Source of the DNA: Rhodovulum sp. PH10
GTDB taxonomy: Bacteria > Pseudomonadota > Alphaproteobacteria > Rhizobiales > Xanthobacteraceae
Assembly: GCF_000293785.1 (NCBI RefSeq)
Contig: NZ_AKZI01000079.1
Coordinates: 1-64,000 of the forward strand
Direction of reading: 5' to 3'
Length of the DNA: 64,000 nt
Numbering within the stretch: the first letter of the stretch is position 1; each line of letters starts with the position of its first letter. The position numbers were made by a program, and so were the translations under genes. Positions 60,901-63,717 of the stretch are shown here, in pieces. A model generated the notes under the pieces. That model was not told the DNA's origin. It saw nothing but the letters and a program-made list of their open reading frames with translations, and ran no database searches.

Positions 60901-62208
60901 TCATCGTTCGACACCGGAAAAGATCACCGTCACCGGTCCGTCGCCGAGCGCTTTTGCCGACGCGATCACACCGGCGAGCCCCGCGGTGCCGGTCGCCGAC
61001 ACGTCGATACCCGTGTGCGCGCGCCCCAGCGCATGCGCCTTTGCGACGGTCTCCTCGTCGACCACGCAGGCCGCGCCGCCCGTGCTGCGAATGCTTTTCA
61101 GAATCTCGAGCCAGTCGTAGGTCTCGTCGTCCAGAATTCCGTGGGCGAGACTCGTCGGCGTCTGCTCCCACGGCCACATGAAGCGAGAGCGCGCCCGCGC
61201 CGCTTCGGCGGGATCGACGCCATCCGCACGTGACACGGCGCGCGCGAGCGGCGCGCATCCTTCGGTCTGAACCACCAAGAGCCGCGGCGCTCGTGACAAA
61301 ACCTTCGCCCGAGCCGCCAGCGCGAACCCCTGTGCCAAGGCACTCGCCAAGGCGCCGCCGCCGACCTGCACGGCCAGCGTTCCGGGATTGTTTGATGTCG
61401 TCGCATCGCGTGCGAAAAACTCGGCGATCTCGAAGGCCAGCGTGCGCGCGCCCTCGACCGCGAGCCCGTTGTCCGGCCCCTGCACGCCGAACGGCAGCGC
61501 GCCGCCGGCGACCGCCGCACGAAACGCCGAGACGCACGGATCGCCCGTCTCGCTCGGTCGCCGCTCGCAGATTTTTATCGCCGCGCCGAGATCACGCAGC
61601 CGCGCGACCACCGAGGCTTCGGCATCGGGCGGAATGAACACGTCGAGTGGCTTGTCCGCCGCCCGCGCCACCACGGCGGCGGCGAGCGCCGCATTGCCGC
61701 ACGAGGCGATCGCGAGCCGCTTGTCCTTCACCGACGCCGCCGCCGGCAACCGCGCCGCCTCGAGCACCCGCAAGAAGATCAGCACCCCCATCAGGTGGCG
61801 CGCCTTGTGCGAGCCGGCGACGTTTCCCGTCTCGTTCTTCACCAGCAGCGGCCCGTGGAGGCCGACCGCCCGTGCGAGCGCCGGCTGCGCCGCCATCGGC
61901 GTGATGCGAAACCCACGTCCGTCGACCGTGATCAGCTTCTCGTCGAGCTCTTTCACGATCTCCTTGTAGGCTTCGTCCGAGAGCCCTGCGGCGCGCGCCA
62001 ATCGATAGGGCGTGAGCCACGAACGATAGCGCAGGAACGGGTTCTCTTCGTCGCCCGGCGTGACGGAGGGATCGTCGTCACGCGGTACCAACAGATGGTC
62101 GACATCGTCGCCCGCCCGCGCATTCGGGCAGGCGAACGGCAGGGTGCGGTCGAGAAACACCTCCGCGCCGCAACCGTGACAGACGAAGCTCGGAACGTTT
62201 TTCCTCAT
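60901..62208 (-). CDS. threonine synthase-like PLP enzyme of unknown substrate
   Basis: A 435-residue fold-type-II PLP enzyme. It starts with a ribbon-like segment (Cys10, Cys13, Cys27; the fourth ligand is not evident), then the core: PLP lysine Lys135 in NETGNVAGSHKARH, the substrate loop ASCGNAALAAA and a Gly-rich phosphate loop (VQVGGGALASAL). In threonine synthases the lysine motif reads GSFKDR; here it is GSHKAR, so homoserine phosphate is doubtful as the substrate. It begins 18 bases after the other PLP gene and is surely co-transcribed. Confidence 0.82.
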   Translation of the reverse strand: MRKNVPSFVCHGCGAEVFLDRTLPFACPNARAGDDVDHLLVPRDDDPSVTPGDEENPFLRYRSWLTPYRLARAAGLSDEAYKEIVKELDEKLITVDGRGFRITPMAAQPALARAVGLHGPLLVKNETGNVAGSHKARHLMGVLIFLRVLEAARLPAAASVKDKRLAIASCGNAALAAAVVARAADKPLDVFIPPDAEASVVARLRDLGAAIKICERRPSETGDPCVSAFRAAVAGGALPFGVQGPDNGLAVEGARTLAFEIAEFFARDATTSNNPGTLAVQVGGGALASALAQGFALAARAKVLSRAPRLLVVQTEGCAPLARAVSRADGVDPAEAARARSRFMWPWEQTPTSLAHGILDDETYDWLEILKSIRSTGGAACVVDEETVAKAHALGRAHTGIDVSATGTAGLAGVIASAKALGDGPVTVIFSGVER

Positions 62209-62226
62209 GACATCGCAGCCACAGCG

Positions 62227-63717
62227 TCAGCCGCGTCCGGCGCCGCTCTTGGCGTTGAACTCGCCGATCATCGCGTCCCAGGCCGGCACGAGATCCAACA
62301 GCCCGTCCCAGAATTTCTGATCGCGCCGCGCCGTGAACTCCTCGATCGAGACACCCTGCTGCTCGACCCAGGTGTAGTAGCCGAGATTGAAGATGCGCTT
62401 GCGGTCGACATGCGTCAGCTCGATCAGATGATCGGTGCTCGACCCCATCAGCACGTGCCCGAAGATCTCGCCGGCGGTCACCGCGTCGAACCGGTTGCCG
62501 AAATATTTCGGCATCGCCTTGACGGCTTCACTGCGATACATCGCGGCGCCGTCGGTAGCGACCGTCACGATCACGTCGTCCGGCCCGAGATCCCAGTATT
62601 TTGCCGCCTTGATCGCCGCCAGCACGTTGCACAGGCTCGACAGCCCAAAGTGCTTCAGCGCATCGATCAGCGCCGGATCGATGCCCCGCCGCTCGGCGAG
62701 ATATTTGTGGCCCTCGTCGGTGTTGAACAGCATGAACAGCGTGTCGGTCGCGTGATCGCTGACGCCGACCACCATGTCGGTGTTCATCACGTTGTGGATC
62801 AGCGGCACGTGCTTGTCGCCGATGCCCTGGATGTTGTGCTCGCCGAACCCGTTCTCGAGCAGCGTCGGGCATTCCAGCGCCTCGACTGCGACGATTTTCG
62901 TGCCGTGCTTCGCCTTCAGATGATCACCGGCCGCGAGCGTTCCGGCCGACCCGGTCGCCGACACGAACGCCGCGAGCCTCTTGCCGTTGCCGGGCAAGCT
63001 CTCGAACACCGCGTCCAACGCCGTGCCGGTGCAGATCCGATGCACCAGATAGTTGCCGAACTCGCAGAACTGATTGAAGACGATATTGTCGGGATTTTTG
63101 TCGAGCTCCTTGCAGGCGTCGTAGATCTCCTTGACGTTGCTCTCCGAGCCCGGCGTCCTGATCACGTCGGACGGATCGGTCACCCAGTCGCCGAGCCAGT
63201 CGAAGCGCTCCTGGCTCATGTTCTCCGGCAGCACGGCGACGCCGCGGCAGCCGAGAATGCGCGAGATCGCCACCCCGCCCCGACAGTAATTTCCAGTCGA
63301 CGGCCAGATCGCGCGATGGTGCGTCGGGTCGAACTGGCCGGTGATCACGCGCGGCACCAGGCAGCCGTAGGCCGGCAAGACCTTGTGCGCGGAAATCATC
63401 GGAAAGCGGTCGCCGAGCGCGAGCACGATCGGTGCGGCGACGCCCGTCAGCTCGCGCGGCAGCACGATGTGCCCGGGCACGTCGACGAGAGTTTTTCGCG
63501 CGGCGTCGTTCCACCAATGGACACGAAACAGGTTCAGCGGATGCGGCGTATCGGGATCGACCGAGGCGAGCTTCTCGCGAGTGTTAGGATCGATCGTGGT
63601 CGGGTTCGCCAGTTCCGACAGCGTCGGCAGAAGCACGTCCGCCTCGCGGAAGCGGGCATTGGTGCGTTCGTAAACGTTCTGGTCGATGATGCTCCGCTCG
63701 AGGCCGAGGCGTGCCAT
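62227..63717 (-). CDS. fold-type-II PLP-dependent enzyme of unknown substrate
   Basis: A 496-residue protein with the cysteine synthase/tryptophan synthase-beta fold. The likely PLP lysine is Lys112 ([13 protein letters not shown]), followed by the substrate loop [13 protein letters not shown] and a late Gly loop [13 protein letters not shown] (near 270). It is longer than cysteine synthases, with an extra N-terminal about 90 residues. Possible reactions are lyase or deaminase chemistry on an amino acid. A name such as diaminopropionate ammonia-lyase is tempting from context but not supported by the residues seen. Start ATG 63717 has no clear ribosome site. Confidence 0.82.

Follow-up and report, generated by a model that had tools for sequence, protein, structure and literature searches.

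Two adjacent genes for fold-type-II PLP enzymes in Rhodovulum sp. PH10 are probably (at roughly 60%) an alternative terminal module of the reductive urate pathway, which would form pyruvate and ammonia from 2,3-diaminopropionate (DAP) or from its last ureido precursor. The pathway itself is known, and its gene content suggests that the pair is most likely a new variant at the terminal step, used instead of, or beside, YgeX. The arguments for this role are gene neighborhood, obligate pairing, the rarity of YgeX and intact PLP lysines. The window, i.e., the whole stretch of 64,000 nucleotides that was analyzed, holds the following features, and the rest of the contig beyond its end was included in the analysis of the surroundings.

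60603..60797, (-): 2[4Fe-4S] ferredoxin (YfhL-like), 64 aa, downstream of the pair
60901..62208, (-): P0001 (435 aa), a PALP protein on the threonine synthase/dehydratase branch; its start resembles a CCCH zinc ribbon, its PLP lysine is K135 in GSHKxRH, and it has C170 in SCGNAA and a DDETYDW signature
62209..62226, (-): gap of 18 bases between P0002 and P0001
62227..63717, (-): P0002 (496 aa), a PALP protein on the OASS/CBS branch; its PLP lysine is K112, its loop reads [10 protein letters not shown], and it has further segments at both termini and the signature RxFNLGYxTWVEQ
63780..64000, (-): 3' end of an SsnA-like aminohydrolase of 411 aa (whole gene G000:C79:63780-65015)

The reductive uric acid pathway was worked out in 2025 and employs XdhD, YgfK/UacX, SsnA, HyuA, YgeW/UacY, YgeY and lastly YgeX, a DAP ammonia-lyase that forms pyruvate and ammonia (PMC12507026; PMC12990295). 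Both isomers of DAP are substrates of YgeX (PMC12507026), and the E. coli enzyme uses Lys77 and Asp120 (PMC4000059). A literature search turned up neither a description of the P0002/P0001 pair nor growth data for Rhodoplanes on anaerobic urate use.

Sequence Features and Kinship of the Two PLP Proteins

The ORF calls confirmed two PLP reading frames 18 bases apart, as well as the 496-residue length given for the second protein in the initial annotation. Both proteins match PF00291 (120.5 and 43.4 bits, curated cut-off 35), and an NCBIfam profile search returned no family above cut-off for either. Their AlphaFold2 single-chain models are confident, with mean pLDDT of 92.5 and 90.4.

All 78 homologues of P0001 that were compared keep residues C10, C13, C27, H38, K135 and S169-C170-G171-N172 as well as the DDETYDW stretch. 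The zinc-ribbon-like start described earlier is present but is of the CCCH type (C10, C13, C27, H38), not made of four cysteines; the GSHKAR motif around K135 was found as described and is conserved in the same homologues. Threonine synthases (PRK08197-type, ThrC) are the nearest relatives of P0001 in sequence and fold, and its modeled fold neighbors further include threonine deaminase and serine racemase, with the DAPAL structure 5ygr within the top 50. Nevertheless, the lysine motif of threonine synthases reads G[ST]FKxRG, whereas that of P0001 reads GSHKxRH, and P0001 is devoid of threonine-pathway neighbors.

In the AlphaFold2 model, P0002 has a core of the OASS/CBS fold (target-length TM of up to 0.82 in Foldseek), to which segments are added at both termini. 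The PLP lysine K112 lies in 'AHKVL'. Across 68 homologues, K112, the PSTGN loop and RxFNLGYxTWVEQ show no or almost no variation, and the proposed substrate loop is conserved as well. P0002 resembles CysK, CysM and CBS in core fold (TM ~0.8 by target length) and in the QGIG and MSxER motifs, but differs from them in its size of 496 aa, in N- and C-terminal extensions that are missing from [14 protein letters not shown], in an insertion in its asparagine loop, in the AHKV lysine motif and in a long stem in the tree. A paralogue of P0002 with 65% identity occurs without P0001 (L059:8810-10300; G000:C34:35321-36781), next to genes for an M20 deacylase, a CoA-transferase, a luciferase-like enzyme and FbiC (F420 biosynthesis), and similar clusters were found at two further loci (L060 and L061). 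An OASS-like enzyme of this family thus need not use DAP, since such a paralogue resides in F420-linked clusters.

A tree of both families and of reference enzymes from E. coli and Rhodoplanes placed P0001 as a single clade (100% support, stem of 1.9 changes per site) among threonine synthase-like proteins and P0002 as a single clade (100% support, stem of 3.3 changes per site) sister to OASS. This agrees with the earlier assertion that they represent different branches of fold type II, and they may indeed be called unassigned, as both stand on long stems apart from ThrC, IlvA, CysK/M and YgeX. It is hardly credible that divergence merely disguises an ordinary threonine synthase and an ordinary cysteine synthase. 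The threonine synthase and cysK models are their top generic matches, but at 77.8 bits against an equivalog cut-off of 303 for P0001 and 76.7 bits against 350.95 for P0002. In addition, thrC-, ilvA- and cysK-type genes are located elsewhere in the genome, and no threonine or cysteine biosynthetic gene is nearby. A closely related, assigned threonine synthase or CysK was sought and not found, the best PDB relatives being a threonine synthase match of 45 bits (P0001) and an OASS match of 60 bits (P0002). This identity was rejected on the scores far below cut-off and the tree placement.

The YgeX model (NF006058/PRK08206, cut-off 276 bits) gave 13.1 bits (E 0.025) for P0001 and no match for P0002, and in the tree both families fall outside the YgeX clade (99% support), so that neither is monophyletic with E. 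coli YgeX. P0001 and YgeX have in common the fold-type-II PLP type, the PALP domain, a KDE[ST] stretch and a residue-GN loop, and the pair occupies the same place in the gene cluster as YgeX. In contrast, there are two proteins here and one there; identity to YgeX is ~26% for P0001 and not significant for P0002; and the TDGNHG of YgeX, which contains Asp120, corresponds to SCGNAA in P0001, which also bears the zinc-ribbon-like N-terminus. Asp120 before GN is replaced by invariant Cys170 in P0001 and Thr141 in P0002, while the PLP lysine is kept in both. As these lysines are retained throughout the homologues, P0001 and P0002 are both probably active enzymes.

Urate Gene Cluster in Rhodoplanes

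Upstream of the pair and in the same direction are genes for the SsnA-like aminohydrolase, a Se-dependent xanthine dehydrogenase (XDH) homologue and an RpiR-type regulator. The SsnA-like protein is 35% identical to E. coli SsnA, and the SsnA models (260 and 239 bits) are its best family, below their cut-offs of 444 and 455.5; the XDH homologue (878 aa) scores 898.8 bits with TIGR03311, against a cut-off of 830. Two genes are divergent from the XDH/SsnA run: one encodes an AllC-type amidase, the other an Amidohydro_3 protein that shares its Pfam domain with C. difficile UacY. The initial annotation knew of no described pathway with this pair, a view that does not hold, because the operon belongs to a reductive urate degradation cluster, with genes past the window end. 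Such an operon narrows the substrate to DAP or a close ureido precursor.

The genome of the window and five relatives, six Rhodoplanes genomes altogether, were compared. The arrangement XDH - SsnA-like - P0002 - P0001 is kept in all six, the XDH gene being cut by a short contig in one, and most of them have the RpiR-type regulator ahead of the operon and the ferredoxin gene. The latter lies beside the pair in three of the five congener loci, in one of the three on the opposite strand. YgeW was found above cut-off in four congeners (610-621 bits), two of which also have YgfK above cut-off beside the cluster. On one contig (G004:C34), YgeW, YgfK, a YgeY-like protein, XDH, SsnA, the pair and the ferredoxin are encoded together, and this genome, like that of the window, has no YgeX above cut-off genome-wide. 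The genome of the window is without YgeW and carries UacY/AllC-type hydrolases instead, indicating that the ureido-cleaving module has been swapped within one genus while the PLP pair has stayed constant. Counted genome-wide, it encodes the full set of a reductive urate cluster (XDH, YgfK/UacX, SsnA, HyuA, YgeW/UacY and a YgeY-type hydrolase); its short YgfK and its hydantoinase (above cut-off) are on other contigs, which counts against the proposed role.

Compared with the clusters of E. coli (xdhD-ygfM, ygfK, ssnA, hyuA, ygeWXY) and C. difficile (UacX, UacY), the same set is present except for the last step, and the alternatives UacY/AllC and YgeW/YgeY both occur within Rhodoplanes. Unlike the E. 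coli cluster, that of Rhodoplanes lacks YgeX and has the pair in its place; it also features an XDH without FAD, a ferredoxin gene by the pair in most genomes and mostly a short YgfK. No FAD subunit gene was found beside the XDH homologue. In the short YgfK, an FMN-type N-domain is present together with weak Fer4 matches, but an NAD(P)H part is lacking. The ferredoxin (60603-60797) is a candidate electron donor for both. Variants of this kind have been proposed to use ferredoxin (PMC12507026), and the position of the gene beside the pair fits that proposal. At three pair loci in Actinomycetota and Chloroflexota (L112, L119 and L137), no YgfK FMN-domain match was among the genome-wide matches listed, and a luciferase-like gene is part of the pair cluster in L112. 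The missing match agrees with the F420-dependent pathway variant proposed by Li et al. (PMC12507026).

The window also encodes OHCU decarboxylase and HIU hydrolase of the oxidative urate pathway, fused in one ORF (56497-57387, (+)). An NMT1-type ABC transporter is encoded next to it, and the reductive urate genes are ~3.5 kb away. This arrangement recurs in two congeners. The oxic and the anoxic route of urate use appear to be encoded as neighbors.

Distribution of the Pair and Its Relation to YgeX

A scan of 85,000 species genomes yielded 462 stretches with P0001 relatives, the best 80 of which were analyzed, and neighbors were identified by NCBIfam profiles and by comparison with the E. coli cluster. 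P0002 lies directly upstream of P0001 on the same strand in 70 of these 80 loci. For the other ten, P0002 is located elsewhere in nine genomes, and the tenth locus (L098) begins inside P0002 at a contig end; a stand-alone P0001 gene was accordingly rejected. P0002 is hence found in every P0001 genome examined, including the one copy cut at the contig end. The functional coupling suggested earlier for the tandem enzymes is strengthened by this, given that it extends to genomes where the genes are not adjacent, and such obligate co-occurrence fits either successive steps or a heteromer. Chance adjacency is excluded by the recurrence of gene order and strand in 70/70 loci with both genes, where the gap between aligned ends has a median of 32 bases. 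The distances of the two families correlate (r 0.91), which was not counted as evidence of a complex because shared descent explains it. A plasmid search recovered only P0002 paralogues, in Rhizobium and Bosea.

The 70 pair loci span at least nine phyla. XDH, SsnA or YgfK is encoded within at most 10 kb in 42 of them and some pathway gene within the same distance in 54; among the 34 loci with full flanks, 27 have a pathway gene near the pair and the other seven are of the Pleomorphomonas type. Few positives for TIGR03311 were obtained in a sample of 398 Pseudomonadota. Of the 36 genomes with a core-linked pair, 34 lack YgeX genome-wide and two have it. A genome-wide search detected YgeX in seven of 50 pair genomes, and in two loci (L099 and L136) it is inside the pair's own cluster. 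Strict mutual exclusion was therefore rejected, and simple replacement of YgeX is weakened by the same seven genomes. A Pleomorphomonas urate cluster (L177:4594-13736) contains YgeX, AllC, a C-N hydrolase, YgfK, XDH and SsnA, and the pair of that genome lies elsewhere (L065) without pathway genes. Together with the co-occurrence, this arrangement indicates that the pair may do something besides the job of YgeX.

Proposed Role and Alternatives

In the proposed pathway, the Se-XDH homologue would reduce urate and YgfK would dearomatize the product, after which SsnA and the hydantoinase would open the rings to give 2,3-diureidopropionate. Removal of both ureido groups, putatively by UacY-like and AllC-like enzymes in the genome of the window and by YgeW and YgeY-like enzymes in its congeners, would yield DAP. 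The pair would then eliminate ammonia from C3 of DAP to form 2-aminoacrylate and, from this, pyruvate and ammonia, a step assigned to YgeX alone in E. coli. Judged by its gene context, the pair most likely either replaces YgeX without being homologous to it or acts as its partner. Its place after ureido removal is suggested by two ureido-cleaving classes in 24 of the 70 pair loci, and applies even without SsnA nearby, as in one cluster with an AllC amidase, a C-N hydrolase, a transporter and the pair (L068) and another with YgeY (72% to E. coli), YgeW, carbamate kinase and the pair (L107).

OASS-type enzymes form aminoacrylate from L-substrates and generally accept beta-substituted alanines. 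The invariant cysteine of P0001 falls in the alignment column of DAPAL Asp120. A division of labor can be imagined in which P0001, with Cys170 at that position, handles the D-isomer as a lyase or racemase and P0002 eliminates on the L-isomer; this is speculative and rather doubtful. Another speculative option is that P0001 and P0002 form one heteromer.

Two other readings compete with the terminal DAP module. The pair might belong to the urate pathway but have a ureido intermediate, not DAP, as its substrate, for example by elimination of the ureido group of albizziin or the amino group of 3-amino-2-ureidopropionate. This would explain why some genomes retain YgeX, which accompanies the pair in the seven genomes and twice shares its cluster, and it would suit the tolerance of OASS-type enzymes; the 24 loci with two different ureido-cleaving enzymes, L068 and L107 included, speak against it, since DAP should be formed there, and we regard it as quite unlikely. 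It is also unlikely that the pair serves another amino acid and merely shares hydrolases and regulation with the urate pathway, the linkage reflecting nitrogen-scavenging islands. The seven Pleomorphomonas-type loci and the P0002 paralogues in unrelated F420/CoA-transferase clusters would be in line with such a role, but it accords poorly with the pair forming one gene run with XDH and SsnA across large distances of descent and with the lack of YgeX in 34 of the 36 core-linked genomes.

A broader form of the DAP reading is tentative and falls somewhat short of even odds: an obligate two-protein, possibly heteromeric DAP-degrading system may have arisen independently of YgeX by the joining of OASS- and threonine synthase-derived proteins, to complete reductive purine degradation as its terminal module in at least nine phyla, and may so far have been counted as YgeX through PF00291. 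The marker for YgeX in a 2025 survey was PF00291 within 15 genes of SsnA (PMC12507026), by which the pair would be scored as YgeX. A PF00291 match in a urate cluster therefore need not mean YgeX. The pair would supply the last step of anaerobic urate breakdown that has been missing in phototrophic bacteria and in those of soil and sediment, and it raises a question of enzymology, as two PLP proteins would always occur together for a job that one enzyme does elsewhere.
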